Of a stretch of DNA of 64,000 nt, positions 1-17,605 are shown piece after piece; position 1 is the stretch's first letter; each line of letters starts with the position of its first letter. The translations under genes were made by a program, and so were the position numbers. The notes beneath the pieces were generated by a model, which ran no database searches, was not told where the DNA came from, and saw only the letters and a program-made list of their open reading frames with translations. This DNA comes from Microvirga lenta (GTDB taxonomy: Bacteria; Pseudomonadota; Alphaproteobacteria; Rhizobiales; Beijerinckiaceae), in contig NZ_JAJBBR010000008.1 in assembly GCF_020532555.1 (NCBI RefSeq), positions 1 through 64,000 of the forward strand. Reading direction: 5' to 3'.

Positions 1-429
1 CGCACGGTCTGCACGCCCGCCTCCAGATCGACCTGCACCTTCCCGGTCTGCTGGAACGTCGACCAGCCGCCGGTGAAGCCCACCCCCACCGGAGTGGCCG
101 TCTCGTAGACCGTGCCGCCCTTCTCGAACGTGGCCGTGATCGAGCGGGCCGTGCCGCCCTGCGCCCCCAGAGCCGACAGGAACGACAGGTCGTAGGTGCC
201 GGCCTGAGCCACGTTGATGGTGTATTCCACCCATTCCCCGTTGGCGATCCAGCCGATGGCAGAGTTGTTGCCGACGATGTCGACACCCTCGTTGCGCCCG
301 GCCGTGCCACCCTCGTCCGTGGTCGGCGTGGTGTCGTTGTAGGCAACACCCTGACCGCCAAGGTCGAACTTGGTGGCGTCCACCAGAACCGGATCGGCCC
401 CCACTGCGATGGCCGTGCCGCTGAACGGC
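1..429. repeat. Copy A of a near-identical intragenic duplication (CBM6-like module)
   Basis: Bases 1-308 are identical to 1291-1598. The next two differences, at 309 and 345, are synonymous in the minus-strand frame. Similarity breaks at 391-400 (the variable linker) and resumes at 401-429. The copy encodes part of one CBM6-like module of the giant protein and probably continues left of the window. Such identity points to a recent duplication or gene conversion. Confidence 0.95.
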
Positions 430-3400
430 GCCTGCTGATTGGCCGGCGGCGGCACGTAGTCGAAGGTGAAGGAGCGCAGGTCCAGAATATAGGGCGAGCT
501 TCCCTCCGGCGTGCCGTTGAAGGCCAAGCGGATGGTCTGCTGCCCCGCCGGCAGGGTCAGCTCTACCGGAGCGGTGGCCTGGAACGGCGCGTTGCCGAAG
601 CTCGTCCCTCCGTCCTGCAGGGCCACGGTCGCCAGAGGCGTTCCGTTGCCTAGCGAGACGGCCACCGTGGCATTGCCGAGCGGCGTCTTGGCCATGAGGC
701 TGAGCTTGTAGGTGCCGCTCTGGGGTACGTTGACGGTGTACTCCACCCACTCGCCCGGACGGACATAGCCGATGTCGTTCTGAGCTCCGACGAACTCGAC
801 CGCATCGCCCGGCCGGAAGCCGGTGCCGCCGTCCTTGCCGGCATTGTCGTTGTAGGCGACGCCCTGCCCTCCCTGGTCGAAGTTGGAGGCGTCCACCGTC
901 AGCGAGCCGTTGACGAAGCTCGGCGCCGTCCCGCCATAAGGCTGCTGGGTCGGGGTCGATGTGGGGGGCGCAACGGTCAGGTTGAAGGTGGTTGCCGCAC
1001 TGGCCGCACCATCCGACGCGGTCACCGTGATATCGAAGGTGCCCGCTGCCGCCGGCGTCCCGCTGATCACGCCGGCCGGCGTGATCGAGAGACCTTGCGG
1101 CAGGCCGCTGGCCGTATAGGTCAGCGCGTCGCCATCGCTATCGGTGAACGTATTCGCCGGAAGGGCGAAGTTGAAGGTCTGGCCTTGGGTGGCCGTCTGG
1201 GCTCCCACGGCCTGACCCACGACCGGCGCGACGTTCGTCTTGTCGAGGGTGAAGGACTTGAGATCCATGGAGCCGCCGCTGAAGGCCAGGCGCACGGTCT
1301 GCACGCCCGCCTCCAGATCGACCTGCACCTTCCCGGTCTGCTGGAACGTCGACCAGCCGCCGGTGAAGCCCACCCCCACCGGAGTGGCCGTCTCGTAGAC
1401 CGTGCCGCCCTTCTCGAACGTGGCCGTGATCGAGCGGGCCGTGCCGCCCTGCGCCCCCAGAGCCGACAGGAACGACAGGTCGTAGGTGCCGGCCTGAGCC
1501 ACGTTGATGGTGTATTCCACCCATTCCCCGTTGGCGATCCAGCCGATGGCAGAGTTGTTGCCGACGATGTCGACACCCTCGTTGCGCCCGGCCGTGCCGC
1601 CCTCGTCCGTGGTCGGCGTGGTGTCGTTGTAGGCGACACCCTGACCGCCAAGGTCGAACTTGGTGGCGTCTATCACGATCGGATCGGCCCCCACTGCGAT
1701 GGCCGTGCCCGTAAACGGGGTTTGGCCGCCGCCGCCGGCACCCGCGTACTTGTACACGGTCACGGCGTTGAGTGCCGCATTGTCGATCCCGTCCGGCCCG
1801 GTGGAGTCGAGGGCAATGGAGATCACGCCGTTCGTGACGGTGACGAGTGTCTCGACCGCGTAGGGCGTGTCGCCGCCGACTTCGGCGAAGACATCCAGGT
1901 CGTCAGCGACAAGGCTGCCGTTCACCGATATGTCGAACTGGCGCATACCGGCCTGGTTCCAGTAGGTCTCCTGGGTGTGGAGAACGACCACGTAGGTCCC
2001 GTTCGCGACGTTGATCGCGGCATTCCAGCTGGTGCCGTCCTCGTACGTCTTGAAGGCGGATCCTGCGACGGCATTCGCTCCGTTCGGGTTGCTGGCGCTG
2101 TCCGTCCCGGCAGCCGGATTGACCGACCCGGTAACCGAGATGCTGGACTGCGCCTGGAGAGCGACGCCCAGGACGGGATCGTTCGCGATGGCTCCTCCCC
2201 CGAAGTTCACGCCGGTGACGTAGTCGCCCTTCTCCAATCCGCCGTCGCCCGGATCGGGGTTCGTGGTCGGATCGAAGAAGTTGACCGTGCCATCGGCGTC
2301 AGCGTCGAGCTCGAGCGCATCGTTGACGTCATTGTTGTTCGCATCGTTGGCCGTGGTCAGGTCGTAACCCTTGACGTTTTTGATGACGAACATGTGGTCG
2401 TTGTAGTCGTAGTTTCCGGCGCCCGGGTAATCCTGGATGCCGATATAGGTGCCCTCGATCGCGTTTCCGTTCGCATCCAGCGCCTGGAAGAAGCGGATCA
2501 GGTGGCCCTGGTTGTCGCCGACGAGATGCCCGAAGTTCGGGTCGATCTTGTTGGCTTCCGGATCGGACCAGGACGCGTAGGTCGGACGGCCGTCCACGGA
2601 GATGTAAAGGCCGAACGGATTGTTGTGGTTGATCGTCGCCCGGGCGACGTTCGCCCCCGATCCCGCACCCGCCAGGAGCTGATCCGGCAGGATCGTCTGA
2701 CCCTGCTGGTCGTCGTTGGCGAAAAGCTGGGTGACCTGCGAGGACTCGAGGCCGTGGAAGCCCAGGCGAGCCACGTTGCCCTGGTTCAGGAAGGCCGCGA
2801 GCTGGATGACCTCGATCGGCTTGGTGCCGTCGAGCCGCTGGAGATAAGGCAGCAGAACCTCGTCCCCGATGGTCTCGACCACGCCTCCGCCTGCCAGCTC
2901 ACCCTGCGCCACGTCGGTCCCGTAACCGAAGGCTTCGACGATCTGGGCCACGGTGGGTTCGGAGTTGTTCTCCGAGAACTCCTGGGCCAGACCGGCGAGC
3001 TGGATCACCTTCTCGGGCTGGTTCACATCGTTGGACCGGATGGTGAGCGTCGACTTGTAGAGGTCGGCGCCGCTGCCCGTTCCGGCATGGGTCCCGATGA
3101 AGCGGACCGTGACGGTTGCGCTGGCGCCCGCCGCAATCGAGGTGGGAGCCGTTCCGACGATCTCAAAGGCCGGATTGCCCGTGGTGATGCTTTCGATGGT
3201 CAGCGGGGCAAAGCCGTCATTGGTGATCGTGAACGTCGCTTCGTTACGGAAGGCCTGCGAGGCATTGACCGGGTTCTCGATGTTGGTGAAGACGAGACGC
3301 TCGTCCGCCGCCGCATCGTCCAGACCGCGCAACACCACGCTCTGGCCGAACCCGACCGGGGCAACACCTTCAATGACGAACATGTTGTCATTGTAGTCGT

Positions 3401-6400
3401 AGTTGATGCCCGTGTAGTCCATGATGCCGAGATACACGTTGGGGATCACGTTTCCATTCGCATCCAGCGCCTGGAACATCTTCACCGTGTGCCCCTGCTG
3501 AGCCCCCGGCACGACCACGCCGCCCGTCGGGTTGAGCCGCGGATCGGTCGACAGGCCCGCCACCGAGATGCCGAACATGTCGTTGCCGGTCCACCCGTCC
3601 GGAATGTCGTTCCGGGTGAAGGTGCGCGTCGCAAAGGTGCTGTCATTGCCGGCATTGGGCAGCAGGCGCTGGTTGTCGGTCCCTTCGTGGTTCCAGAGCT
3701 GGATGTTGGAGCCCTTGTTGTTGGGGTTGTGGAGGTGGATGGTCGCCCCGCCCGTGCCGTGGAAGGCAGCGATGTGGGTGATCTTGGCCTCCGTGACGCC
3801 GTCCGCGAGCTTCCAGTAGGGCGAGAGCACCTCCGTCGGATCGGTCTTGGCGAAGACGTCGTTGGTGCTCAGCGTCGAGTTCTCGCCGCCGCCGCGGGTG
3901 GTGAGACCCTCGATCACATTGCCGAAGCCGAAGATCTTCCAGACCTCATTGACGTTCGGCTCGTGACCGCCCTCGTCCCGCGACTGCCAGAAGCCTGCCA
4001 GGTCGATGGTGGAGACGGGGGTGTCGGCATCGTTGGTGACGAGGCGGATCGACCCTTCGAACACGGTCGACGTGGCATCGACGTTGGACGTCGGCGGGGT
4101 ATAGGCGGCCCGGTTGAACAGGACCGTCACCTCGATCGACTGACCGGCCGCGAGGGTGAGCCCTTCGAAGATCGCCGGGTTGGCGAGCACGAAGGGACCC
4201 GTGATCTCGGCATCGATCACCGACAGGGGAGCCGTTCCGGTATTGGTGATCCGGATGGTGCCGCTGTCCTTGAAGTCGCGGTCGGCTGCATTCGGGTCGA
4301 CGGCGTTCGGATCCTCCAGGTAGCTGAAGTGGAGCCTGTTGTCGAAGTAGGCCGGGTCGAGGCTCTGGATGGCGATGTCGGCATTGACGTCGCTGGCCAC
4401 CGGCCGCACGTCGAGATAGTCGATGGCGCTGGCTCCCGGAGCGTTGGAGACGACACGCAGCTGGTACTGCGTCCCGGCTTCCAGCTGCAGGAAGGCCGTG
4501 CTTTCGCCCGCCGTACCAGTGCCCGGGAAGGCCAGGTTCTCGACGATCACGCCGTTGAGATAGAGGGTGAGCCCCTGCCCGTTCGGCGCCCCCGCATTGG
4601 CTGCGAGGTCGAGCGCATAGGTGCCGTCCTCGGCGACGGTGAAGAAGAACTCCACCGCCTGACTGTTGAGGGTGCGGGTCGAGTTGTCCGCCGTCTGCTC
4701 GAGCTCGATGCGGGTCTCCCCTGTGACCGCGACATAGTCGGGATCGAAGGGCGTGGTGCCCGCATTGGCGACGCGCAGCTGGTCGATGTTCGGTCCGACC
4801 GCGTTCGGAGCCGTCAGCGTGATCGTGTTGTTGCCGGCGACGAGGTTGACCATGGTCGACTGGAACTGCCACTCGGTTTCGGCATCGTTGCTGAAGCCCT
4901 CGAAGTTGATCGGTCCGAGATCCACTCCGTTGACGGTCAGGTTCAGGGGCCGATCCGCCTTGCTGGCGGCCAGGGCATACCGGAACGCGATTTCGAACGC
5001 TCCCGCCTGGGCCGAATTCACCGTCCAGGTGATCGACTGATCGGTGGTCCCATTGAAGTCGACGAAGCCCGTTCCCTCCTGGTTGCGGTTCTCCGTGACG
5101 ACCACCGCGCCGTTCAGCGTCGCGTTTTCAGCCTCGTAGAAGCTGAATTCGGTCGGCTGCTGCGTGACCGGCGGCACCAGAACCTCGATCTGATCGATGT
5201 TCGGTCCGGTATTCGCCGTGGCCCGGAACGTGACGGTGTTGAGCCCCGCCACGAGGTTCATGGGGATGTCGAGCGTCTGCCAGGTGGCCCATGCGGCATC
5301 TCCGGTCACCCCGGCAGGCGGGCTGAAGCCGAAGGTGCCGATGCTGGCCCCGTTGACGAACACTTCCAGAGGCCGGTCGGTGGTTCCGCCGTTGCCGTAG
5401 CGGACCTTCACCACGCCGGCGCCCGCCTGATCGGAAGGAACCTCGAAGTTGAAGGTCAGGAAATCGGCGTTGCTTGCGCCGAAATCCGCATAGCCGCCAG
5501 GCACGCCATCCGCATTGTTCGTGTTGCCGTCGAGGCCGAAGGCGCCCGGACGGAGGCCGCCGACGAGGCCGCTGGTGCCCGTCTCCGGGTTGGCGGCGGT
5601 GCGGATCTGGATTTCAGCCGGAGCCCCGGGGATCGACACGGAGGTGCCGTCTCCGGGCGTGTTGTCCTCGGCCTGGATCGTCACGAGAGAGACGAGATCC
5701 GTGGGCTGGGGGTTGGGCTCCTGTCCCGGCGTGAAGGTGGCACTGGCCGTCGCGCGGTTGAGCGCATCGTCAGTGACCTCGATCTGCGCCGTCACCGGGC
5801 CGGTCAGGTCGCCCAGATCGACCGTGAAGCGGTTCTGCGAGTCGAGCAGCACCGTCTGCGGAGCTCCGCCGTTGAAGCTGATGCGGATCGCAGTGATGTC
5901 CGTATCGAGCCCGCCGATCTGGAAGATGGCGCTGGCGGGATCGCTGACGTCGACGACGGTAAGCGCAAGATTGCCACCCTCGTCCGCCGTCAGATCCTGG
6001 GTCACGCCGCCCGGAGCCGGCGTGAGGAGGACGAGCTGGCTCGCTCCCGTGCCGCGGTTCAGCGTCATGAGGTAGAGCTGGCCCGTGACCGGGTTCTCGA
6101 TGATGTCGAGCGGATCGATGTAGTTGTTGATGACGGATCCGTCCGGACGGCGCAGCACGTCGTCGCCGACGATGTTGCCCTGCTGGTCGACCAGGATCGC
6201 ACGGACGTTGTCGCCGGCGGAGAACTGGGCGAACAGGATCGCACCCTTGAGGTTGGATCCGAAGGCGGCGCCCTTGTACTCGATGGCTCCGTTCGGCGAC
6301 TGGTTGTAGCCGAGGTTGTAGGTGCCATCGAGGTCGTAGTTCGGATCAGGCTGGACGCCCGGATCGTAACCGTCGGTGTTCGGGTTGCCGTCCTTGCCGT

Positions 6401-9400
6401 CGGTCACCTCGTTCGGGTCGATGCCTCCGGTCGGATTGCCGCCGTTGAGCACGTACTCGTCGCGCAGGACGTTCGGGTGGCCGTAATATTTGCCCTCCTC
6501 GACCGTGAAGAAGTAGTCGTACTGCTTCGGTGAGTTGTTGATCACCTGGCTGCCGGCCTGGGTCGGGTCGTCCGGCGTCTTGCCGCCGGAGGCCGTTCCG
6601 TTGGTCGGCATGTAGAGCTGCCCGTTCGAGTGCCAGACGAGATCGTAGGCGTTACGGACGCCCGTGGCGAAGATCTTCAAAACCGCATCCGCAGCATAGG
6701 GATTGTAGAAGCCCGGATAGGTTCCGTCGGCATTGAAGTTCGCGGCGGGGTTGACCGTCGTGGGCGCCGTGACCGGCTCGGTCCGCACGTTGAAGCCACC
6801 GGGAGGTGCATCGCGGGTCGGATCGATTTCGAGGACAGCCGCATTCAGCAGACGCTCGGGGCGATTGCCCCAGGCATTGTCGGCAGCACCGGCGGCCGAG
6901 TTCGAGCCCTGGGACACGTAGAGCAGGTAGTTCGGCTCACCCGCCTGGCCGGCATTGGGATTGACGCGGAACTCCAGGCTGTTGGTGAGGTGGTCGCCGC
7001 CCGAGCGCGGCAGGCCGTCGATATAGGTCTCGATCGTGGCCCCCGTGAACGAACCGTTCGGCCCGAGGGTGATCTTGCTGATACGCCCCGAGAACTCGGG
7101 CGTGTCGAAGGCCTTGTTCTCGCGCGGGATTGCGTAGTTGTTCGAGATCCAGATCGTATTCGGATCCTCCGGATCGAAGGTGAACCCGACGATACCGCGC
7201 CGGTCTCCGTCGGCCTGGGCGAAATACTCGTGGATCAGGCTCTCCTGGGACGCCTTGTCGATCGTCCCGTCGGCATTGACCGCCCAGCGATAGATCTCGC
7301 CCGTGATAGTGGCCACATAGAGCTTGCCGTCGGGACCGAACTCGATGGAGGTGTAGCCCCCGGCCCCGTCGGCGAAGCCGTCGAGCAGGGTCTGGGTCGT
7401 GAACGCCACATCCCGGGCAACCTCTTCCGGCGCTTCCCCGGTGACAAAGGTCGTCGTCATGTCCTGCATCTGGTGCAGCGGCGCCGTACCGTCGGTGATG
7501 CTACCCAGATCGAGGACGTCTTGGACCTTGAGCGTGTAGCTCGTGTTCTCCTTCAGCGGCTGGAGCGGTCGGATGGTCAAGGAGTCGGCGCCACCGCTGA
7601 TCTGAACGTCGATGGCGACTTCCTGGCCGGTGAGCGTCTCGACCAGCTTGATGTTCTCCACATGCGCGATGTTCGGCCCGCGATGGTTCGGCGCCTGGAC
7701 GTTCACGCCGACGACGAGGCTGGACAGCGGGTTGATGCCCACCGGCAGCGCTCCGTCCGACCCGATGGAGATCGGGACCTGGTCGTTGAGGTAGGCTGCG
7801 ACCGGCGAGGTGAAGTAGGAGTAGTCGAGATCGGCGGGCCGGTCGTCGTTGGGGGTCAGGTCCGGCACACGTTCGACTTCCAGATACTGGATCTCGGTAT
7901 TTGTGCCGCCGATGGAGTCGATGGTCAGGCGCCCGTCCGTCACATGCACGATGCCGGTGACGAGGGTGGAGCGGAAGCCGCCTCCGCTCAGGGAGCCGTC
8001 GACCGGATTGGCCGGCACCCAGCTCTGGCCGAACCTCTGCCCCTCGACGTCGACGACGTAATTGCTGTCGAAGGCGCCGGCCGTATCGCCGACCGACATG
8101 GTCACCTGATAGGTACCGTTCGCCAGCGACATCTCCCATGCCCGCGAGCCGGATACACCGGCCCCCGGATACTCGAAGTGAGCGTAGGTCTTCTGCAGAT
8201 CGGACGCTCCGGTGACGGTGCTCTTGTACCAGTGCGCATTGGCCGGCTGGGCCGCGGCAATGGTGCCGTTGGCAGTTCCGTCCGCGACGCTGGCCTCGGT
8301 CACCCAGCCGTAGCTGAAGCCGTTGCCCCGATCACCGAAGGCCGCGCCGATATCCGCCAGATAACCGGTCGGCGTGCTGTAGCCGGTCGGCAGGCCCTGC
8401 GTCGTCTGGGACGGGGCCGGCTCGAAGTTGATCTTGACCACCTCCTGGAAGGTCATCTGCTCGCGGGGGTCGACCGGCCCCTGGGTATCGCGACTGATCG
8501 TGACATTGTCGATGTTCGGCCCGTTCGTCACCGTATTGGCGATCGAGACGGTGTTCACGCCGGCAGAGAGCTGCACCTCGACGGTCGCCGTCTGCCAGTT
8601 GTCCCAGCCGTCCACGCCGGTACCCGGGAACGACACCGTCTTCGTCTGGCCGCCGACCGTCAGCGACATCGGCCGGTCACCGTTGGTGCCGCCGCCGCCA
8701 TTGGAGTAGCGGAAGGTGAAGGTATAGGTGCCTGCCTCGGGCGCATTGACCGTGAAGGTCGCCGCATCCCCGACCTGGGCGCCCATATCGAGGTAACCGG
8801 CGCCCGTGAAACCATCCCACAGGCCGTCGGAGTTGGCGTCGCGAGCCAGCGGAGCATTCGGCTCGGGATTGTCCGCGGTCCTCCCCTGGGTGATCTGGTT
8901 GCCCGTTCCCGAGGTATCGACGGGGGTGAAGGTCTCCGCCTCGATGGTGAGGGTGAACGGCTCCGGATCGGTGGGACCGCCATTCTGCGGCGCAAAAGTG
9001 ATCTGGTCGATATTGGGGCCGTTGTTGCCTCCCGCCGGAATGGCGAGCTTGATCGCATTCGCGCCTGCCGACAGGTTCAGCTCCACGGTCTTCTCGACCC
9101 AGGAGTTCCAGGCTGTGGCGTCCGCGCCCGTGCCGACCACAGGACCGGGCACGAAGCTCACGGAAGTGGCCGCACCGCCGTTGAGCGACAGATCGAGCGG
9201 ACGGTCCGTAGCCCCGCCATTGGCATAGCGGAACGTCACGAGATAGGTGCCGGCCGCCGGAGCATTGACATTGATGGTGATGGCGTCGCCAGGGTTGCTG
9301 CCGAAGTCCATGTAGGCCCCATCGACGGCTCCGGTGCGGTAGTTGCCGAAGGCATCGGGATTGGCCTGGTCCACGACACGCGTGAAGTCGCCGTTGGTGG

Positions 9401-12400
9401 GCACACCGGTATCCTGCACCGTCACGCTCGCGGCATCCTCGGCCTGGATCGTGAACGGCGCGGCAGTGGCGCCGGCGATCGTGACATCGGCGGTCGCCTC
9501 GGCTTCGTTGCCGGCTTCGTCGGTCACGATCACGGTCACCGTCGTCACGCCCGGAGGCAGTGCGGAACCGTCGAAGACGAAGTCACCGTCGGCATCCGGA
9601 AGACCCGTGATGTCCGTGCGGGTGACGCCGCCGTCGAAGCTGATCTCGACCTTCGTCACGTCCGCATCGACGCCTGCGATGTTGAAGTTGATGGAGGCGG
9701 CGCCCGCCTCGTTCAATTCACCGTCCGGCGCGTCGAGGAAGAGGTTCCCATCCTCATCCGCGGAGGTATCGGAACCGATCGGGCCGGTTCCGGCCTGCGT
9801 GATCTCGATGCGGTCGAGGTTCGGTCCCGCCGTGGCTCCGGCAGGGATCGCGAAGGTGATCGTGTTGACCCCTGCGGTCAGAGTCACCGTCTGCGTCAGG
9901 AGCTGCCAGACGTTGAAGCCCTGAAGCTCCGTCGGGCCGCTGCTCGGCCCCGTATCCGGGAAGGTGGTGGTGCCGAGGCTGGCACCGTTGATGCCGATAT
10001 CCAGAGCCCGCGGAGCGCCGGCAAAAGCCTGCGACGCATAGCGGACGTTCAGATCGTACTGGCCGGCCTGGGCAACGGTGACGGTGTAGGTGACGGTGTC
10101 TCCCGCATCGTTGCCGAAATCCAGATAGCCCGTACCGGTGAAGCCGGGACGCAGGCCGTTCGGAAGGGCGGGGTTGTTCTCCGGGTTGTCGGGGTCGCGG
10201 ACCATCGTGTCGTCGTCCGTCGTCACCGCGTCGCCGATCAGGCTGATGCTGCCGGCTTCGGCCTGGATCGTGATGGGTGTGAAGGCCGCCTCGTCCACAT
10301 TGGTCACGGTGACCGTTGCGGTCTTGACGTCTTCGAGGCCGCCATCGGTCGCAGTGACCTCGACCTCATAGGCGTTGTTTCCGTCCGCATCCACGGGCGC
10401 CTCATAGTCGGGGGAGTCCTTGAAGGACAGTGCGCCGGTCGCGGCGTCGATGACGAACCTGTCCGCGTCGGCGCCTCCCGTAATGGCGAAGACCGGCGAG
10501 GCGAGCCCGGCGGATCCACCGTCCTCGTCGGTCAGCGAGACCGAACCGGCCGCAGTGGACCCCTCGGCCACCGAGAAAGCGGTTTCGCCGATGGCGATGC
10601 TCTCATTGATGTCCGCAACGGTGACGACGACATTCTGAGAAACGGTATTGCTGCCGTCGTTGACGGAGACCGTCACCTCGTAGCTGCCGTTCCCATCCGA
10701 ATCCGCCGGTGCCTCGGCGTCGGGTGCCGACACGAAGCTAAGCGCGCCGGTCTCCTGATCGTAGCTGAAGAGCGCCGCATCAGCGCCTTCCAGAGTTACC
10801 GTGACGGCGTCGTTCTCCGGATCGGAGATCGTGACCGTGGCGACGCTCGTCCCGTTCTCGTCGATGGCGATGGCCTCGGCCAGCCCGCCTATGGCGGGAG
10901 CCGCATTCACCGGCTCCTCGATCCGGGTGAAGACCAGGCGGTCGATGCGCATCACCTCACCGGCATTGGTCTGCGCCGATAGCGTGGCAATGGTCTGCGC
11001 ATCGATGAAGACGGGCGTTTCGAAAGCGATGGACTTCAGGTTGCCCGTCTGGGCTGCGTTGCCACGGGTGCCGCCGTTGAGGAAGCTCCCGAACTGGTCG
11101 TTCAGAACCACCGTCCCGGTGAGTTCGTCGGTGGCCGTGTTGCGGGCCTGGAGGACCGTGTCGCCGATCTTCAGCGACAGAGTGCCCTGCCCGTCCGTCT
11201 CATCGAAGGCGACGACGCTCACCATGTACCAGCCGGCCGTGAGCCCATTGGCGCCGAGATTCGTGGAGACCTCTCCGCTCTGGTTGTCGTTCAGACGGAT
11301 CAGCTGGCTGCCGGAAGCCGGAGCGGCCGCCGTCATGTAGAAGTTCGTAGCGCTGGCAAGGCCGGTAAAGGCCTCCGCCTCGACGCTCACCACGTCACCG
11401 ACGGTGGGGCCGTCGATGTTGAACTGCAGCGTGATCGTGTCGGAGAGACCGCCGGCATCGGTCGCGCGGACGATGACGGAGAACGCTCCTGCCTCCGTCG
11501 GTGTGCCGACGATCACGCCCTCCTCGTTCACGGAGAGCCCCTCGGGCAGCCCCTCGACCGACAGGGTGAGCTCGTCCCCATCCGGATCGCTGAAGAAGCC
11601 GCGCAGGGAGCCGAGATCCAACCCGTCGAAGGCTTGGCCGGCCTCACCGAAATAGGGCTCCAGAGCCACGTCGGCGGCAACCGGAGCATCGTTCACGTTC
11701 TCGACCGTGAGGTCGAAGGACGTGCTCGTCGTCTCCGTGCCGTCGCTGGCCGATACGGTGATCACATAGGCGCCGACATCGAGGCCGGACACCGTTCCGC
11801 TCAGCACGTTTCCGCTGATCGAAAGACCGTCGACACCTGGGACCCCGGCACCGTCCTTCGTGATCGTGAAGGCATAGGTGAGCGGGTCGTTGTTCCGGTC
11901 CACGAACGGCAGGTCGATCTCAACGGCGCCGCCCTCGGAAACGACGATGTCGGCGATACCGCCTCCGACCACTTCAGGCGCGACGTTGCCGGGGGTCTCG
12001 TCGACGCTTTCGACGAGCTGGACATTCGAGAACGTCGCGGAACCGAGAGGCGTGCGGGTGTCGTCGTCGCTGATGAACACGAGCGAGTTGATCGTGGTGC
12101 CGGCATGGGCGCCGAGATCGATGGTGTAGCGGACCGTTCCGTTCTCGTTCGGCTGGCCGGAGCTGCGCAGATCGATGAAGCCCGCCTGCGTCTGCGACCC
12201 GCCGAGCTGGTAGATCGACCGATCCCCGTCGAAGGCGTTCTCGTCCAGGTCGAAGCCGACCGCGACGATTTCCGGCATATTGGCGCCGATGGCAAGATCG
12301 AGGACGATCTTGGTGTCGGCGGTGATCGCATAGCCTTCCGTCAGCGCAACGCGCTTCCACAGGTTGTCGTTCAGGGCCAGCGTCGCGCCATTGTCGGACA

Positions 12401-14147
12401 CGACGAAACCAGGGGCTCCGAAGGGGCTGTCCTGGCTGCCGGCATAGGAAGTCACATTCTCGAACGTCACCGATACGGGCCCAGCGCCGGTATCGGGAGC
12501 AGCCGCCATGGTGACCGTGATGCTCTCCGTCGCCACGTTTCCAGCGGCGTCGGTGGCATAGAACGCGATCGTCGCCGGGCCTTCCGGCAGCGCCGAGAGG
12601 TCCAGAGTGACCTGCCCGTTCGTGACCGGCACCTCAATGCGGCTCAAGCCGCCATCGAGGCTGGCCTCGACCTTCACGATGTCGCCGTCCAGGCCGGCCA
12701 CGCCGAACACCACGGCACCCGCCGCCTCGGTCGAAACGGCCTCGGACGGTCCCGTGAAGCTGAGATCGTCCCCCTCATCGGCGGTCGTGTCGGGAACCGC
12801 AGCCGCCTCGAAGAGGTCGAGGGTAATCTGATCGATGTTGGGGCCGTTGTTAATGCCTGCGGGAATGCTGAGCTGGATCGTGTTGGCGCCGGCGGCAAGG
12901 TCCAGCTCCACGGTCTTCTCGACCCACGAGCTCCAGGCATTCGCAGTCGTTCCGGTCCCCACGATGGGACCGGGGAGGAAGCTGACCGACATCGGCTCCG
13001 CGCCGTTGAGCGACAGGTTGAGCGGACGGTCGGCGTCACCGCCATTTGCGTAGCGGAAGGTCACGAGATAGGTGCCGGCCACGGGAGCATTGACGTTGAC
13101 CGTGATGGCGTCGCCCGTATTGCTGCCGAAGTCCATGTAGGCGCCGCCTACTGCGCCGGTTCGGAAGTTTCCGAAGGCATCGGGGTTGGCGGCATCGACC
13201 ACGCGGGTGAAGTCACCGTTGGTGTTCACGCCGGTGTCCTGTACGGTCACGCTCGCGCTGTCCTCGGCCTGGATCACCAGCGAAACGCGGGCGGCTCCAT
13301 TGTCCGCAAGAATGGTGAAGCCGACGGCCTTCTGGACCTCGTTTCCTGCATCGTCGGTGATGAACACCGTCGCCTGAGCCGAACCCGCCGGCACATCCGC
13401 TGCACTGACAGTCACCAGATAGGTGCCGTTGCCCTCATCGACTGCGGTAACGGGTGTGCGCGTCGTGCCGCCGTCGAAGCTGATTTCGAACGTCGTCGAG
13501 TCGGCATCGACGCCGTAGAGACGGAACTCGGCGGCACCGACCTCGGTGGAGTTCAGGATGCTGTCGACCGGAATGACGGCGAGATTTCCGTCCGCATCGG
13601 CCGAGAAGTCGGTGAGGGCGTCGAAGGTCTCCGTCTTGCCCGGATCGGTGACGGCGATGACATCGATGTTGGGGGCGTACTGTCCGGCCCCGGACATCTG
13701 CATGATGCCGATCGTGTGAGGACCGTCTCCCGTGAGTGTCACCTGGAAGGTCCGCACCTGCCAGATGTCGAATCCTCCGGTATTCGTGTTCTGGGCCGCC
13801 CCCTGCTGCTGACCGTCCACCGCGATGGCAATCGGACGGTTGAAGGCAGCACTGGTCGCAGTGCCGGTCGCGCCGTTCGCGACACGCAAATGGATGTCGT
13901 AGGTGCCGGCGGGAAGATTGAGCTCGAACGTGGCTCTTACGCCCGTGGTCGTGCCGTTGATGTCGAAATAACCCTCGCCGGTATAGCCGTTGCGCAGACC
14001 GTACTCATCGAACCCGGCCTCCGGCAACTGAGACTGCGTGCGTTCCTGGTTCGCTGTCCTCGTTCTGACCAGGGTATCGTCGGTCGTGCTGGTGTTGCCG
14101 TCCGGAATGATCGTCAGGTCTTCAGCTTGCAGATAGATCGTGTCCAT
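1..14147 (-). CDS. Giant multimodular carbohydrate-binding / beta-propeller exoprotein (3' end outside window)
   Basis: A single frame runs from ATG at 14147 off the left edge, at least 4715 residues. By eye the modules are: CBM6/35-like (QAED...GPNID pattern) at about 1-166, 288-445, 912-1073, 1288-1446, 1558-1717, 1722-1885, 2818-2990, 2995-3130, 4142-4302, 4400-4570 and 4578 onward; a lectin-like domain 555-715; Ig/cadherin-like domains between them; malectin-like 1900-2085 and 3970-4135; an SbsA-type Ig domain 2098-2240; a glucose/sorbosone-dehydrogenase-type propeller 2244-2712; and two HYDIN-like plus unknown units 3256-3595 and 3600-3925. The N-terminus (MDTIYLQAEDLTII) has no signal peptide, so a C-terminal type I secretion signal would be expected beyond the edge; this is inference. 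Likely role: surface or secreted glycan binding, adhesion or matrix. No transport genes for it are visible here. Substrate and enzymatic activity are unknown. Confidence 0.9.
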   Translation of the reverse strand, partial: MDTIYLQAEDLTIIPDGNTSTTDDTLVRTRTANQERTQSQLPEAGFDEYGLRNGYTGEGYFDINGTTTGVRATFELNLPAGTYDIHLRVANGATGTATSAAFNRPIAIAVDGQQQGAAQNTNTGGFDIWQVRTFQVTLTGDGPHTIGIMQMSGAGQYAPNIDVIAVTDPGKTETFDALTDFSADADGNLAVIPVDSILNSTEVGAAEFRLYGVDADSTTFEISFDGGTTRTPVTAVDEGNGTYLVTVSAADVPAGSAQATVFITDDAGNEVQKAVGFTILADNGAARVSLVIQAEDSASVTVQDTGVNTNGDFTRVVDAANPDAFGNFRTGAVGGAYMDFGSNTGDAITVNVNAPVAGTYLVTFRYANGGDADRPLNLSLNGAEPMSVSFLPGPIVGTGTTANAWSSWVEKTVELDLAAGANTIQLSIPAGINNGPNIDQITLDLFEAAAVPDTTADEGDDLSFTGPSEAVSTEAAGAVVFGVAGLDGDIVKVEASLDGGLSRIEVPVTNGQVTLDLSALPEGPATIAFYATDAAGNVATESITVTMAAAPDTGAGPVSVTFENVTSYAGSQDSPFGAPGFVVSDNGATLALNDNLWKRVALTEGYAITADTKIVLDLAIGANMPEIVAVGFDLDENAFDGDRSIYQLGGSQTQAGFIDLRSSGQPNENGTVRYTIDLGAHAGTTINSLVFISDDDTRTPLGSATFSNVQLVESVDETPGNVAPEVVGGGIADIVVSEGGAVEIDLPFVDRNNDPLTYAFTITKDGAGVPGVDGLSISGNVLSGTVSGLDVGAYVITVSASDGTETTSTSFDLTVENVNDAPVAADVALEPYFGEAGQAFDGLDLGSLRGFFSDPDGDELTLSVEGLPEGLSVNEEGVIVGTPTEAGAFSVIVRATDAGGLSDTITLQFNIDGPTVGDVVSVEAEAFTGLASATNFYMTAAAPASGSQLIRLNDNQSGEVSTNLGANGLTAGWYMVSVVAFDETDGQGTLSLKIGDTVLQARNTATDELTGTVVLNDQFGSFLNGGTRGNAAQTGNLKSIAFETPVFIDAQTIATLSAQTNAGEVMRIDRLVFTRIEEPVNAAPAIGGLAEAIAIDENGTSVATVTISDPENDAVTVTLEGADAALFSYDQETGALSFVSAPDAEAPADSDGNGSYEVTVSVNDGSNTVSQNVVVTVADINESIAIGETAFSVAEGSTAAGSVSLTDEDGGSAGLASPVFAITGGADADRFVIDAATGALSFKDSPDYEAPVDADGNNAYEVEVTATDGGLEDVKTATVTVTNVDEAAFTPITIQAEAGSISLIGDAVTTDDDTMVRDPDNPENNPALPNGLRPGFTGTGYLDFGNDAGDTVTYTVTVAQAGQYDLNVRYASQAFAGAPRALDIGINGASLGTTTFPDTGPSSGPTELQGFNVWQLLTQTVTLTAGVNTITFAIPAGATAGPNLDRIEITQAGTGPIGSDTSADEDGNLFLDAPDGELNEAGAASINFNIAGVDADVTKVEISFDGGVTRTDITGLPDADGDFVFDGSALPPGVTTVTVIVTDEAGNEAEATADVTIAGATAAPFTIQAEDAASVTVQDTGVPTNGDFTRVVDQANPDAFGNYRTGAVDGAYMDFGSNPGDAITINVNAPAAGTYLVTFRYANGGATDRPLDLSLNGGAATSVSFVPGPVVGTGADATAWNSWVEKTVELNLSAGANAIKLAIPAGGNNGPNIDQITFAPQNGGPTDPEPFTLTIEAETFTPVDTSGTGNQITQGRTADNPEPNAPLARDANSDGLWDGFTGAGYLDMGAQVGDAATFTVNAPEAGTYTFTFRYSNGGGGTNGDRPMSLTVGGQTKTVSFPGTGVDGWDNWQTATVEVQLSAGVNTVSIANTVTNGPNIDNVTISRDTQGPVDPREQMTFQEVVKINFEPAPSQTTQGLPTGYSTPTGYLADIGAAFGDRGNGFSYGWVTEASVADGTANGTIAAAQPANAHWYKSTVTGASDLQKTYAHFEYPGAGVSGSRAWEMSLANGTYQVTMSVGDTAGAFDSNYVVDVEGQRFGQSWVPANPVDGSLSGGGFRSTLVTGIVHVTDGRLTIDSIGGTNTEIQYLEVERVPDLTPNDDRPADLDYSYFTSPVAAYLNDQVPISIGSDGALPVGINPLSSLVVGVNVQAPNHRGPNIAHVENIKLVETLTGQEVAIDVQISGGADSLTIRPLQPLKENTSYTLKVQDVLDLGSITDGTAPLHQMQDMTTTFVTGEAPEEVARDVAFTTQTLLDGFADGAGGYTSIEFGPDGKLYVATITGEIYRWAVNADGTIDKASQESLIHEYFAQADGDRRGIVGFTFDPEDPNTIWISNNYAIPRENKAFDTPEFSGRISKITLGPNGSFTGATIETYIDGLPRSGGDHLTNSLEFRVNPNAGQAGEPNYLLYVSQGSNSAAGAADNAWGNRPERLLNAAVLEIDPTRDAPPGGFNVRTEPVTAPTTVNPAANFNADGTYPGFYNPYAADAVLKIFATGVRNAYDLVWHSNGQLYMPTNGTASGGKTPDDPTQAGSQVINNSPKQYDYFFTVEEGKYYGHPNVLRDEYVLNGGNPTGGIDPNEVTDGKDGNPNTDGYDPGVQPDPNYDLDGTYNLGYNQSPNGAIEYKGAAFGSNLKGAILFAQFSAGDNVRAILVDQQGNIVGDDVLRRPDGSVINNYIDPLDIIENPVTGQLYLMTLNRGTGASQLVLLTPAPGGVTQDLTADEGGNLALTVVDVSDPASAIFQIGGLDTDITAIRISFNGGAPQTVLLDSQNRFTVDLGDLTGPVTAQIEVTDDALNRATASATFTPGQEPNPQPTDLVSLVTIQAEDNTPGDGTSVSIPGAPAEIQIRTAANPETGTSGLVGGLRPGAFGLDGNTNNADGVPGGYADFGASNADFLTFNFEVPSDQAGAGVVKVRYGNGGTTDRPLEVFVNGASIGTFGFSPPAGVTGDAAWATWQTLDIPMNLVAGLNTVTFRATANTGPNIDQIEVLVPPVTQQPTEFSFYEAENATLNGAVVVTENRNQEGTGFVDFNGTTDQSITWTVNSAQAGAFEIAFRYALAASKADRPLNLTVNGVDLGPINFEGFSNDAETEWQFQSTMVNLVAGNNTITLTAPNAVGPNIDQLRVANAGTTPFDPDYVAVTGETRIELEQTADNSTRTLNSQAVEFFFTVAEDGTYALDLAANAGAPNGQGLTLYLNGVIVENLAFPGTGTAGESTAFLQLEAGTQYQLRVVSNAPGASAIDYLDVRPVASDVNADIAIQSLDPAYFDNRLHFSYLEDPNAVDPNAADRDFKDSGTIRITNTGTAPLSVIDAEITGPFVLANPAIFEGLTLAAGQSIEVTVLFNRAAYTPPTSNVDATSTVFEGSIRLVTNDADTPVSTIDLAGFWQSRDEGGHEPNVNEVWKIFGFGNVIEGLTTRGGGENSTLSTNDVFAKTDPTEVLSPYWKLADGVTEAKITHIAAFHGTGGATIHLHNPNNKGSNIQLWNHEGTDNQRLLPNAGNDSTFATRTFTRNDIPDGWTGNDMFGISVAGLSTDPRLNPTGGVVVPGAQQGHTVKMFQALDANGNVIPNVYLGIMDYTGINYDYNDNMFVIEGVAPVGFGQSVVLRGLDDAAADERLVFTNIENPVNASQAFRNEATFTITNDGFAPLTIESITTGNPAFEIVGTAPTSIAAGASATVTVRFIGTHAGTGSGADLYKSTLTIRSNDVNQPEKVIQLAGLAQEFSENNSEPTVAQIVEAFGYGTDVAQGELAGGGVVETIGDEVLLPYLQRLDGTKPIEVIQLAAFLNQGNVARLGFHGLESSQVTQLFANDDQQGQTILPDQLLAGAGSGANVARATINHNNPFGLYISVDGRPTYASWSDPEANKIDPNFGHLVGDNQGHLIRFFQALDANGNAIEGTYIGIQDYPGAGNYDYNDHMFVIKNVKGYDLTTANDANNNDVNDALELDADADGTVNFFDPTTNPDPGDGGLEKGDYVTGVNFGGGAIANDPVLGVALQAQSSISVTGSVNPAAGTDSASNPNGANAVAGSAFKTYEDGTSWNAAINVANGTYVVVLHTQETYWNQAGMRQFDISVNGSLVADDLDVFAEVGGDTPYAVETLVTVTNGVISIALDSTGPDGIDNAALNAVTVYKYAGAGGGGQTPFTGTAIAVGADPIVIDATKFDLGGQGVAYNDTTPTTDEGGTAGRNEGVDIVGNNSAIGWIANGEWVEYTINVAQAGTYDLSFLSALGAQGGTARSITATFEKGGTVYETATPVGVGFTGGWSTFQQTGKVQVDLEAGVQTVRLAFSGGSMDLKSFTLDKTNVAPVVGQAVGAQTATQGQTFNFALPANTFTDSDGDALTYTASGLPQGLSITPAGVISGTPAAAGTFDITVTASDGAASAATTFNLTVAPPTSTPTQQPYGGTAPSFVNGSLTVDASNFDQGGQGVAYNDNAGKDGGTGFRPGDAVEFVGAQNDIGYVRPGEWVEYTVNVPQSGTYKLSLMAKTPLGNATVAVSLGNGTPLATVALQDGGTSFGNAPFQATAPVELTLPAGQQTIRLAFNGTPEGSSPYILDLRSFTFDYVPPPANQQAPFSGTAIAVGADPVLVDATKFDLGGQGVAYNDTTPTTDEGGTAGRNEGVDIVGNNSAIGWIANGEWVEYTINVAQAGTYDLSFLSALGAQGGTARSITATFEKGGTVYETATPVGVGFTGGWSTFQQTGKVQVDLEAGVQTV
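1291..1719. repeat. Copy B of the near-identical intragenic duplication (CBM6-like module)
   Basis: Partner of the copy at 1-429, offset by 1290 bp, which is exactly 430 codons, so the frame is preserved. Between the copies lie an Ig-like domain (about 970-1220) and a more diverged CBM6-like module (about 430-940). The repeated unit is therefore CBM6 + Ig + CBM6 spacing, as expected from in-frame tandem expansion. Confidence 0.95.
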
Positions 14148-14929
14148 GGCCGTGTCGCCTTAAGTTGGGAAAGCTCGGATTGAGGAGTTCTGGGGATCAG
14201 AATTCGGGTGGTTCCAGCGGCTTCCGCGCGCACTCGCTTTCGGGCGCAGCGGATGAGGCTGGTTGCGCTCGGCGCAGATCGGTCGCGGCTATGCCAGATG
14301 GCAGCTCGCGACTTGATGAGGTGGGGGATCGGCGGCTCCAGCCGGGCTTATCGAACAGTGAGAAAAGCCGGCGAGCAGAAACCGTTCAGATAAATTCGAG
14401 TTTTGGTAATTACGCTGCACCTCGAAAGTGCATAGGGACATATACCAATTCAGCTTAGTCACTGATGTCTCCGCGCTCAATTTCGATGTAACATCATCAA
14501 AGTCTTGGTGACGTTACGGCACGGAGGAAGCGTTAACTATACGGACTGAAGGCTTCATTTTGCACGACGATAGTCTGATCTTTGTCAGACCTTGGTCTGA
14601 CGTGCGACATTTTGGCTTTTTGTCTGTCGAACAGTGGATCGCCGGGAATATTTCGGCCAGCGCCTTTCTCCCCGGCCGCTGTCAGGTCGTACGGGCTCCA
14701 CCAGGAGCGGCCCGCCTTCAAACGGACACGCGACGCAATGAGGATAAAGTCTAATCGGACGATGGTCTGATGTCGGCAGGTCCCGGCTGGGCCGATCTGT
14801 GCGACACTGGGAACAAGCGGTTGCGGGATTGAGGCGGAAACGGAACAGCACCCGGCCTCCGCTCATCGAAAGGTCGCTCGTTGGGCCGCTGGAGATTCGG
14901 CAAGGGAATCGAGCCGATAGACCGTGGCT
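14148..14929. other. Long non-coding stretch upstream of the giant gene
   Basis: I find no convincing gene here; the short frames lack ribosome-binding sites and recognisable composition. The middle (about 14390-14640) is clearly more AT-rich than the flanking coding DNA, as expected for a promoter region. It contains the palindrome at 14585-14600 and additional GTCTGA copies at 14573 and 14765. It presumably carries the minus-strand promoter and 5' leader of the giant gene; its exact promoter elements are not evident. Confidence 0.5.
14585..14600. promoter_or_regulatory. Perfect 16-bp palindrome, candidate operator of the giant gene
   Basis: TCAGACC-TT-GGTCTGA is a perfect inverted repeat in an AT-rich, gene-free stretch about 440 bp upstream of the giant gene start. 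A further GTCTGA occurs 7 bases to the left and another at 14765-14770. A regulator-binding site is plausible, but the cognate protein is unknown. Confidence 0.35.
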
Positions 14930-15232
14930 TCAGATGCCCGTGCCTTTGACCCTGCTCAGCATTTCCCAATTCTCGCCGGCCGCGATCATGCAGGCCGTGC
15001 CGTTCGGCATGGTCATCACCATCGACCACGTTCCGCTGGACGAGGCGAAAACCTCCACGACTCGCCCCGGCTGCGCCAGGCCTATGCTCACAGGGCTTTC
15101 CTTGTACTGCTCGGACAGGACCTTCACGAGCTGATCTCGGGGGCCGCATGACGTCTGGGCAGAGACCGGCGAGGAGGCGAACGCGACCAAGGCACCAAAC
15201 ACCAGGGCCGAAGGAAGGGATCGGCGGATCAT
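14930..15232 (-). CDS. Small secreted/periplasmic protein of unknown function
   Basis: The product is 100 residues. A classical Sec signal peptide is visible: positive MIRR, a hydrophobic stretch (ALVFGALVAFASS), and a likely AxA cleavage (PVSAQ) near residue 25. The mature part of about 75 residues has two cysteines (TSCGPRD, GTACMI) that could form a disulfide, and ends in a short WEMLSRVKG segment. I do not assign a characterised family; similar small periplasmic proteins are common in Hyphomicrobiales. It stands alone, with opposite-strand or gene-free DNA on both sides. Confidence 0.7.
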   Translation of the reverse strand: MIRRSLPSALVFGALVAFASSPVSAQTSCGPRDQLVKVLSEQYKESPVSIGLAQPGRVVEVFASSSGTWSMVMTMPNGTACMIAAGENWEMLSRVKGTGI

Positions 15233-15625
15233 GTCAATTCCTTGCGTTTGCCCGCAATAATCCCTTGGCGTCCGGCTAACGCCCGAATGAAGAAAAAGCT
15301 CCGTTGACCTCCTCGGGTCGACGGCGGGAGGGATCAGCCCTCACGAATGTGTGTTCTGGCTGCGCTCTCCAGGCGGCGATCGACGAACTGAGCAGGAGCC
15401 GAGCGGCCGAGGCGCGGCAGCCGGATCGTATCTCCTCCAGCCGCTCCTCTGGCGAGTTGGCAGCACGACGCCGGCAAAAAGCTCCCAATGGTCGCGACCG
15501 GAGTATTTGACTTTGGAGCGGGGCGGCCCAGATCCTGAGGGTTATCACCCTTTCGGGTGACTTACCTTCGAGGCAAGAATAACCCAGGTTATTTTTCGAA
15601 CCGCAGGATGGTCTCACAATCCGCC
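15233..15625. other. Leader region ahead of the cis-prenyltransferase gene, no gene seen
   Basis: No supported gene lies in this stretch. Its right-hand 80 bases hold two inverted repeats: TCACCC-TTTC-GGGTGA at 15545-15560 and AATAACC-CA-GGTTATT at 15578-15593, the latter followed by three more T residues. They lie immediately before the start of the + strand gene and could form leader hairpins or protein-binding sites. Confidence 0.4.
15545..15596 (+). promoter_or_regulatory. Two successive inverted repeats in the leader of the prenyltransferase gene
   Basis: The first is a 6-bp stem with a TTTC loop. The second is a 7-bp AT-rich palindrome with a 2-base centre and a T-rich tail, resembling a weak intrinsic terminator. 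They end about 30 bases before the start codon used here. Attenuation or operator function is inferred, not shown. Confidence 0.3.
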
Positions 15626-16240
15626 ATGGCTAAAGGATCGCTGCCGAAACATGTTGGTTTCATTCCCGATGGCAACCGGCGCTGGGCCGTCGGCCGCGGG
15701 CTGACCAAGGATCAAGGCTACCGCTTCGGGGTTGATCCGGGCCTGGTCCTGTTCGACATGTGCAGGAAACTCGGGATTCCGGAGATCTCGATTTACGGCT
15801 TCACCCAGGACAACACGAAACGCCCCTCCCCGCAGATCCAGGAGTTTCGTGCAGCCTGCGTTTCGTTTGCCCAGGAAGTTGCCAGCCGCGGCGCTGCCCT
15901 GCTGGTCGTCGGGCACGACAGGTCGCCGCTTTTTCCCGATGAGCTGCGGTGTTTTCGGACGCGGGAGGGGAGCGGAACCAAGGTCAATCTGCTGATCAAC
16001 TACGATTGGGAGTGGGATCTCGCCGGACTGAAGGAAGGCGGCATCCGTTCGGAGGAGGTCTCCCGGCTCGACCTGATCGTACGGTGGGGCGGCGGGCGAC
16101 GATTGAGCGGCTTCCTTCCGGTGCAGTCGGTTTATGCCGATTTCTACGTCGTGGACGACTACTGGCCGGACTTCAAGCCGCACCATTTCGATCAGGCGCT
16201 CAACTGGTTCAAGAAGCAGGATCAGACCCTGGGAGGATGA
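15626..16240 (+). CDS. Divergent cis-prenyltransferase (undecaprenyl diphosphate synthase family)
   Basis: The product is about 204 residues, shorter than typical UppS (about 250). Family landmarks are present: HVGFIPDGNRRWA (canonical MDGNGRWA), SIYGFTQDNTKRP (canonical LYAFSxENWxRP), DLIVRWGGGRRLSGF (canonical DLxIRTGGExRxSNF), and the C-terminal YWPDF. The Asp of the first motif, which binds diphosphate/Mg2+ in UppS, is kept, but the glycine before RW is Arg, the NW tryptophan is Thr, and the GGE glutamate that helps bind Mg2+ in E. coli UppS is Gly. It is therefore probably not the housekeeping UppS; substrate and product are unknown. An alternative ATG lies at 15608. The gene is monocistronic and followed by a strong terminator. 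Confidence 0.75.
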   Translation: MAKGSLPKHVGFIPDGNRRWAVGRGLTKDQGYRFGVDPGLVLFDMCRKLGIPEISIYGFTQDNTKRPSPQIQEFRAACVSFAQEVASRGAALLVVGHDRSPLFPDELRCFRTREGSGTKVNLLINYDWEWDLAGLKEGGIRSEEVSRLDLIVRWGGGRRLSGFLPVQSVYADFYVVDDYWPDFKPHHFDQALNWFKKQDQTLGG

Positions 16241-16273
16241 ATGCCTCGCCAGCCGTCTGTCGTCCCCACAAAA

Positions 16274-16304
16274 GAGGCTCCCCATGGGAGCCTCAGTTTC
16301 TTTC
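16274..16304 (+). terminator. Rho-independent terminator after the prenyltransferase gene
   Basis: A perfect 9-bp stem GAGGCTCCC / GGGAGCCTC with a CAT loop is followed by AGTTTCTTTC. It lies 34 bases past the stop codon. Confidence 0.85.
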
Positions 16305-16417
16305 AGGGAGGACCAATGCCGTCGGCCGATAACCAGTCTCGGCCTCGTTCATCCTTCGATCAACTCAATAATTTTAACCGATTATGAAGACCTGAGAGCA
16401 CCGTCCCGCGTCGCTCT

Positions 16418-16585
16418 CTAGCGTGCTGCCCAAGCTCTCCAGGCCAGAACGGGGGCAAGCAAAGGCCACCCGAAGGCCGCAATGAGGATGTGCCGCAAAC
16501 CAACACCCTCGTCTTCCTTGATCCCCGTCGAAAGCGCCAGCACTGCGATCACGACGCCGAGATAAGCGACCAGTACCCCCTCCAT
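16418..16585 (-). CDS. Small two-helix membrane protein, unknown function
   Basis: The product is 55 residues, starting MEGVLVAYLG. A hydrophobic segment covers residues 3-19, then a charged KEDEG turn, then a second hydrophobic segment (HILIAAFGWPLLAPVLAW), ending RAWAAR. The start at 16585 is preferred over 16600 because a purine-rich AGGGTAGGGGA lies just before it. Hydrophobicity and a matched Shine-Dalgarno sequence support a real gene, but no function can be assigned. Confidence 0.55.
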   Translation of the reverse strand: MEGVLVAYLGVVIAVLALSTGIKEDEGVGLRHILIAAFGWPLLAPVLAWRAWAAR

Positions 16586-16749
16586 TCCCCTACCCTGCAT
16601 GCTTGTTCATTGATGGAGTGCAGGGCTACAGGCGAATAAAACCGCAACCTATGCGGTGGGTGGTCGCGATGGGCGATTCAACGACCCTGGCGCAATTCTG
16701 CCACACCGCCGGAGATGAGATCCGAATACATCCTGACGCGGAACGCGGC

Positions 16750-16866
16750 TCATGAACCCACCAAGGCGGAAACAAGCACGCTCAGCGCGTGGGCCAAGAA
16801 GATCAGGAACGGGATCAGCACGATGGCCGCGACGACCATGGCAAGCGACAGACCAAGATTACGCAT
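16750..16866 (-). CDS. Single-pass membrane mini-protein of 38 residues
   Basis: ATG at 16866 is preceded by a good AGGAG 7 bases upstream; the stop is TGA at 16752-16750. The peptide begins MRNLGLSLAMVVAAIV and is almost wholly hydrophobic from residue 5 to 35, with few charges, so it should span the membrane once or twice. It lies about 165 bases upstream of, and on the same strand as, the other small membrane protein gene at 16418-16585. The function is unknown. Too short for homology by eye; the ribosome-binding site is the main support. Confidence 0.55.
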   Translation of the reverse strand: MRNLGLSLAMVVAAIVLIPFLIFLAHALSVLVSALVGS

Positions 16867-17100
16867 ACCGGGCTCCTGGACTTCGAACCTTCAGCTTCAT
16901 CGGTAATCTTGGCTGCAAGATGTCCTGACGTCGGACGGGGCTCCAACTCCTCGACTTTTGCAGATGAGCCGGTGCTACACCGAAAGAGGTACTCACGGAG
17001 CAAGATTCAAACTAACCCCTATTGTTAGGGAATGCTCGTTGCACCTTAACTGATCGGAAAGGTATGTTTCTTCAACGGATTCCATGATCCGGAGGGAACA

Positions 17101-17391: not shown

Positions 17392-17478
17392 GTCGACACG
17401 GCAGGCATTCAAACTCGCTCCCTTTTCGCTTTCCGGTTCGGCTGTTCCGCCCCCAGGCCCCGCCGAGTCGGGATCTCC

Positions 17479-17504: not shown

Positions 17505-17605
17505 GTCGCCCCCCTGCCCTTCGTGCTACGATCCTCACCTAAGGCCGTACCTTACAAAAGGCTTAGTCCACCTCCGTAATGGGTGCGGCTGCCTTCAGGG
17601 GATGG

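Follow-up and report, generated by a model that had tools for sequence, protein, structure and literature searches.

What is a propeller of the sugar-dehydrogenase type doing in the middle of a giant glycan-binding protein? The question is raised by the first gene of a 64,000-nucleotide stretch of Microvirga lenta DNA (contig NZ_JAJBBR010000008.1, positions 1 to 64,000; hereafter the window), which lies on the reverse strand (3..14147, −), has 4715 codons from its ATG and is still open at the contig end. A first-pass annotation, made from the letters alone, had proposed either a glycan-tethered oxidase or a structural blade. The best explanation in our analysis, to which as a whole we give an even chance, is a glycan-binding giant exported by a type I secretion system (T1SS) and carrying an active, GSDH-derived sugar oxidoreductase with an altered cofactor site. 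For the giant we observed its anatomy, the fold of the propeller, the conservation of residues within it, T1SS genes beside the gene in relatives, and a conflict between the trees of the propeller and of the downstream part. If the explanation is true, one exported chain of about 5000 residues would tether a sugar-oxidising enzyme to polysaccharide; it would be a bacterial counterpart to the fungal AA12 enzyme linked to a carbohydrate-binding module (CBM), and might act at the glycan surface as a source of electrons or as a modifier.

The propeller and its closest folds

The first-pass annotation had called for a domain search of the full protein and a structure prediction of the propeller. 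The domain search was run on the 4715 amino acids (aa) together with a 157-aa end found on a second contig (C31). The GSDH-fold beta-propeller lies at aa 2247-2714 (6006..7409, −). AlphaFold2, given an alignment of 85 sequences, returned a propeller model with a predicted local distance difference test score (pLDDT) of 87.1 and a predicted template modeling score (pTM) of 0.81, which has the six-bladed propeller fold of GSDH (PF07995). In VIA-align comparisons, its six closest folds are sugar dehydrogenases (Z of 32.6 for 3a9g, 31.7 for 2ism, 31.3 for 7cgz, 31.1 for 3das, 30.9 for 7cdy and 30.3 for 2g8s), followed by the AA12 structure 6jt5 (28.5), the soluble pyrroloquinoline quinone (PQQ) enzyme sGDH (1qbi, 26.8), fungal Diels-Alderases (26.1 and 25.6), and lactonases and DFPase (about 23-25). 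Foldseek returned sGDH as the top match of the model (5.1e-14). A profile search also matched sGDH (1.6e-9) with the Asp-His pair in register; the Arg-Asn pair was aligned in another stretch, which scores a weak 1.4 bits. The profile was required to reach sGDH: a PDB search with the single sequence gave two matches, neither of them GSDH.

The same pocket and Ca2+ could also serve a non-redox propeller, either carbohydrate-binding or hydrolytic in the manner of a lactonase, in which Asp-His and Arg-Asn would act in ligand binding or hydrolysis. We consider this unlikely, since the six closest folds stand about 6-8 Z units over lactonases and both sGDH pairs are retained. Families of another kind were also tried and rejected. 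The PVC-type heme-binding CxxCH family (TIGR02604) scored 25.8 bits against a cut-off of 122.2, with no CxxCH present, and the ScyE family likewise scored far below its cut-off. A c-type haem domain was rejected as well, the CxxCH motif being absent from all 125 giants compared; b-type haem needs no such motif.

Conserved residues of the pocket

Residues were counted over 84 short relatives (alignment A1, hand-picked from the 120 listed of 1028 matches, partial ones excluded) and 120 giants (the window's and P0003-P0121, drawn from the family's 299 matching proteins, own included). D2385-H2386 (6990..6995, −), aligned to the Asp-His of sGDH, is kept in 84/84 and 84/84 short relatives and in 119/120 and 120/120 giants; R2498-N2499 (6651..6656, −), aligned to the Arg-Asn, is kept in 84/84 and 82/84 short relatives and in 120/120 giants at both positions. 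According to excerpts of two papers, His144 of the Asp-His pair is the catalytic residue of sGDH (PMC6881789) and the Arg-Asn pair flanks the PQQ ketones (PMC6881810). Other Arg, His, Asp and Tyr residues are conserved in both sets too, among them R2287 (84/84 short relatives, 119/120 giants), R2317 (80/84, 120/120), R2381 (84/84, 120/120), H2506 (83/84, 119/120) and H2557 (84/84, 120/120). R2317 and R2381 presumably adjoin positions lining the sGDH active site and, judging from alignment columns rather than distances, could take over an anionic group of the cofactor or substrate.

Many propellers are scaffolds. For the propeller of BapP from Pseudoalteromonas an anchoring role has been speculated (PMC12153261, in part), and the propeller of the giant might in the same way be a pseudoenzyme or structural spacer. 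We hold this to be very unlikely: polar residues are invariant over 204 sequences (84 short, 120 giant), the named ones coming from several phyla, and many of the short relatives listed have Big_5 and GSDH as their only precomputed domains. Because a spacer would not need residues conserved across giants and short relatives, the oxidase is favoured among the two roles first proposed. That the propeller is enzymatically active is somewhat more likely than not. As an outcome against its idea, the first-pass annotation had named a propeller stripped of all catalytic and cofactor residues in a protein matching a characterised adhesin family end to end; what we found in the giant differs from this.

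A family with a shared core

The combination of modules had been called unusual; it is instead the shared core of the 299-protein family. In the 125 giants compared (the window counted twice, as P0001 and P0002; some cut by contig ends), the core is colinear: the conserved stretch of aa 1870-2125, the Big_5-like immunoglobulin (Ig) domain, the propeller and a CBM35 match, not necessarily the same copy, are found in 125/125, and block X (aa 3240-3975) in 124/125, P0030 being without it. Ahead of the propeller the giants have between 476 and 3506 aa, some proteins being cut at their ends. Their source names are mostly 'carbohydrate-binding protein' or 'hypothetical protein', and with names so general the enzyme-like part is easily overlooked.

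The short relatives are Big_5 plus GSDH-like proteins of 318-833 aa (the search admits 262-833), as against 4715+ aa in the giant, and the named ones come from Deinococcus, Nostoc, Micromonospora, Pontibacter and Verrucomicrobiota. Their propeller is 37-72% identical over the aligned part, and Big_5 (PF13205) is present in many of the 120 listed. In our searches of the open-licence PMC literature we found no publication on these short proteins and none recognised as dealing with the giant family.

Among 101 genomes drawn from relatives, own included, the propeller occurs in one, and block X in one; in a class-wide draw, matches came from 2/385 genomes, one of them the own genome and the other weak (32%, E 4e-9). 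The giant gene is thus sporadic in these draws, and its horizontal transfer is likely. Twelve plasmid records have a match; in three of them, from Rhizobium and Salipiger, it extends across the entire propeller, with 50-82% identity. The DNA located about 18 and 29 kb away from the giant gene has matches to Microvirga replicons, with 82.8% identity to M. lotononidis across some 6.5 kb and 88-89% to Microvirga sp. VF16 across some 1.4 kb.

A probable exchange of the central cassette

P0118, a giant from Microvirga, has 92% identity to the protein of the window in block X and 98% in the malectin domain, as opposed to 46-52% in the stretch 1870-2125, Big_5 and the propeller. Along the chain, identity climbs from about half to >85% over aa 3111-3350; values of 57-75% are also seen at aa 2811-2990, and there is a dip to 65-70% at aa 4191-4310, so that the pattern is mosaic.

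Quick trees with SH-aLRT (approximate likelihood-ratio) support were built, the first pair from 35 giants and 19 short relatives and the tested ones from 31 giants. The protein of the window and P0118 are sisters in the tree of block X (support 100) and lie on two sides of a branch in the propeller tree (support 98). Under the approximately unbiased test, with groups chosen after the trees were seen, holding the two together in the propeller tree was rejected (p-AU 6e-5), as were the Rhizobiales group of the block X tree when forced on the propeller tree (1e-45) and a single clade of the second propeller type in the block X tree (1.4e-7). The simplest reading of these comparisons is that the central part has been exchanged, probably at least twice; an old duplication with different losses would be the alternative account of the same conflict. 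In the propeller tree, 6 of the 19 short proteins (P0125, P0128, P0131 and P0136, together with P0122 and P0123, which may be fragments) fall among the giants, which are therefore not one clade.

Probable export of the giant and a proposed mechanism

We are largely confident that the giant is a glycan-binding protein that would be exported, as its neighbourhood in relatives suggests. Because exact peptide words were used to pick out the 15 neighbour loci, these represent close relatives. ABC and HlyD homologues lie near the giant in 14 of these, directly after its stop in 11; they follow an interrupted frame in L017, precede the giant in L012 and L023 (for L023 the locus itself shows a part of them and L034 the whole), and none turned up at the L024 locus. 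In L027, the ABC and HlyD proteins score above the cut-offs of TIGR01842 and TIGR01843. A LuxR-type regulator homologue (GerE domain) is located upstream in 10/15 loci, in 3 of these on the opposite strand.

The giant starts with MDTIYLQAEDL, where no hydrophobic stretch was seen by eye, and has no cysteine in its 4715 aa; the median cysteine count over the 125 giants is also 0. Its candidate C-terminus on C31 ends in DDFNF, which we infer may be a secretion signal; related endings (e.g., DFIF) occur in a few giants, and many are without. RTX repeats (PF00353) are listed for some giants, for example P0003. Another likely type I secretion cargo is encoded near the giant (window 19693-20805, −), a protein of 370 aa that bears RTX calcium-binding repeats (PF00353).

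In the mechanism that we propose, a T1SS would export the cysteine-free giant as a surface or matrix protein, the array of CBM6/35 and malectin modules would hold polysaccharide, and the propeller, placed behind the Big_5-like domain, would be an active sugar oxidoreductase derived from the fold of the soluble PQQ sugar dehydrogenases. In catalysis the anomeric OH would lose its proton to His2386, the acceptor being held by Arg2498-Asn2499, and electrons would pass to an acceptor outside the cell, presumably diffusible because the haem motif is absent. The cofactor would probably be scavenged PQQ or a related quinone, in a pocket that would be rearranged since the usual R-x-R is gone.

The missing R-x-R and the cofactor

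We take the canonical R-x-R to be Arg406 and Arg408 of sGDH, both holding PQQ. The motif is present in 5/5 bacterial PDB enzymes aligned and in two canonical GSDH proteins from the same genome as the giant, whose R-I-R falls in the alignment on D2678-P-L2680 of the giant (6108..6116, −). Short relatives have Arg at column 2678 in 7/84 cases and, at 2680, no Arg among the residues listed; in the wider loop of aa 2674-2686, 2/120 giants have Arg or Lys. Of the pocket residues whose inspection was advised at first pass, sequence alignment shows Asp-His and Arg-Asn kept and R-x-R lost.

Several observations weigh against an exported, active oxidoreductase of this kind. The loss of R-x-R is uniform, D2678 and L2680 each being present in 120/120 giants, with Arg or Lys at aa 2676-2682 in 0/120. 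The Pfam GSDH score (PF07995) is 17.4 bits, below the gathering score of 25 bits, and at E<=0.001 PF07995 has no match in the window; given the score, this family was dropped as proof of identity. As for the fold, sGDH itself is merely about 2 Z units over lactonase propellers, fungal Diels-Alderases reach 26.1, and a modelled fold alone would show no function. Searches of the own genome and the genomes of 14 of the 15 neighbour loci (that of L012 omitted) found pqqC and pqqE missing in 7/15 carriers, own genome included. The PrtD-type T1SS transporters above cut-off in the own genome, three in number, are on other contigs (C12 twice, C29), and RTX repeats (PF00353) were not found at E<=0.01 in the giant (P0001) nor in the 157-aa C31 end. 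With the Pfam cut-off missed and R-x-R lost, we would not class the propeller among the PQQ sugar dehydrogenases; it may work like one all the same. 'Oxidase' likewise stays a provisional word, because R-x-R is lost and the two pqq genes are missing from those carriers.

The giant might instead be a PQQ sugar dehydrogenase of the ordinary kind, supplied with PQQ from its surroundings like the E. coli enzyme, the R-x-R change being minor. Consistent with this, excerpts of the literature state that AA12 binds PQQ with a changed residue set, without an equivalent of Lys377 (PMC6881789), that fungi with AA12 do not make PQQ (PMC6881810), and that Arg406 and Arg408 of sGDH line the pocket beside the catalytic site (PMC1781467), so that their loss may also concern substrate access and not PQQ alone. 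Moreover, the own genome, without pqqC and pqqE, has two full-length GSDH genes (PF07995, 486 and 476 bits; C11 186007-186999 and C14 537763-538737) and a third, partial GSDH match (50.5 bits). The excerpts of PMC6881789, which name Arg408 of sGDH, also say that AA12 keeps Arg621, called conserved in bacterial enzymes, whereas the giants have no Arg or Lys there; D2678 seems to occupy the Arg621 position, as placed through the bacterial GSDH alignment and PMC6881789 rather than a direct AA12 alignment. An ordinary PQQ enzyme is on balance quite improbable.

As for the supply of PQQ, the 8/15 carriers that have pqqE are also those that have pqqC. Among genomes of relatives (own included), pqqC occurs in 6/61, and one of the six belongs to the 36 other genomes of the genus. 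PQQ is used without being made by E. coli and fungi (PMC6881810, in part), so this pattern neither proves nor excludes PQQ, which we would name only tentatively as the cofactor of our cofactor-altered oxidoreductase. We also considered, as a rather doubtful extension, a separate GSDH branch without R-x-R that would oxidise sugars of the bound polysaccharide through a differently held or different extracellular cofactor, its central cassette swapped between exported giant backbones. If true, cassette exchange would alter the enzyme and leave the anchor in place. Since all 120 giants examined have the same altered pocket, one may ask what this GSDH branch binds, and how, without the usual arginines.

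Comparison with known systems

The soluble PQQ sugar dehydrogenases (A. calcoaceticus sGDH, E. coli Asd, 3a9g, 2ism, 3das; PF07995) have the same fold, Asp-His and Arg-Asn; unlike them, the giant is without R-x-R, scores below the Pfam cut-off and has its propeller embedded among glycan-binding modules. The fungal PQQ dehydrogenases of CAZy family AA12 (CcPDH, TrAA12), compared by fold and description only, differ in keeping Arg621, and CcPDH has a haem b domain. With giant T1SS adhesins (LapA, SiiE, MpAFP, the A. hydrophila RTX adhesin) the giant shares great size, Ig/cadherin spacers and sugar-binding modules (PMC12153261, in part, and general background), and T1SS genes stand near the gene in its relatives, those above cut-off in the own genome being on other contigs; in contrast to those adhesins, no RTX repeats were found in the giant, its modules are not tandem-identical and an enzyme-like propeller is present. 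BapP of Pseudoalteromonas tunicata likewise combines a beta-propeller with Ig/cadherin-like repeats and a suspected T1SS, but its propeller is five-bladed and N-terminal and it has a signal peptide (PMC12153261, in part; set apart by description only).

Module map of the giant

All modules are encoded on the reverse strand (−). From the N-terminus, a CBM6-like module (aa 1-180, 13608..14147; 27.2 bits, below the cut-off of 28.9) and a CBM6/35 (aa 286-455, 12783..13292) are followed by two putative Ig (He_PIG) stretches (aa 731-925, 11373..11957), cadherin domains in two stretches (aa 1086-1300, 10248..10892), a CBM35/CBM6 (aa 1296-1455, 9783..10262) and two CBM6 (aa 1560-1710, 9018..9470; aa 1705-1870, 8538..9035). 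The conserved stretch at aa 1870-2125 (7773..8540) is without a Pfam match. The Big_5-like Ig domain (aa 2130-2246, 7410..7760; 19.6 bits, below the cut-off of 23.6) is clear in P0141 and P0172, and travels together with the propeller. Beyond the propeller come a weak CBM6 (aa 2795-2990, 5178..5765; 20.5 bits, below cut-off), a CBM35 (aa 2985-3115, 4803..5195), block X (2223..4430), a malectin domain (aa 3975-4135, 1743..2225) and three CBM6 (aa 4140-4305, 1233..1730; aa 4400-4565, 453..950; aa 4560-4715, 3..470), the last truncated by the contig end. Block X has a HYDIN-type Ig match and regions that match DUF4114 weakly at best, which by eye appear to be a repeated pair and have no clear Pfam family; the quality of its structure model (pLDDT 55.4) was too low for a fold to be assigned.

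The first-pass observation is thus borne out in part, as is its interpretation. The Ig/cadherin spacers and GSDH-like propeller that it named hold. Its dozen or so CBM6/35 modules become 10 pieces matching CBM_6/CBM_35, 8 of them above curated cut-offs, several pieces having no match at all, and of its two malectin-like domains one has a Malectin match (aa 3975-4135), the other (aa 1870-2125) being malectin-like by eye only. The CBM35/CBM6 piece also matches a Pfam model named delta endotoxin (PF03944, aa 1333-1449), which we discarded as a functional hint because CBM_35 scores higher on the same piece (39.4 against 32.2 bits). The giant P0091 of Modicisalibacter ilicicola is labelled delta endotoxin by its source, perhaps from a CBM35-like module also matching PF03944.

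The contig end and its surroundings

Window base 1 is base 1 of contig C27. Exact overlaps of contig ends are a typical leftover of k-mer assemblers. Bases 1..127 overlap the end of contig C31 exactly (L008:19865-19991, 127 bases), a probable assembly junction, and the frame in C31 alone continues for 157 codons to a stop (L008:19866-19393, −). The overlap sits inside a repeat copy (1..428, −; 10 mismatches over 428 bases, 1-308 being identical to 1291-1598), which is the probable cause of the contig break. With the repeat at the gene end, the number of repeat units is not certain, although the C27-C31 join is likely; the complete giant would have about 4872 aa.

On the plus strand, frames of 1812 and 1450 aa run across the gene; we regarded them as antisense artefacts caused by the high GC. 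There are no tRNAs in the window and no RNA families in window 1-30000. Few recognised genes stand beside the giant (L008 17232-19257, window 14148-19650), two C31 frames being without a Pfam family; beyond the N-terminal end of the giant, G+C drops to 0.59-0.62. A prenyltransferase (UppS-like) frame at window 15557-16240 (+), below the listed cut-offs and mostly in two stretches, is perhaps degenerate.
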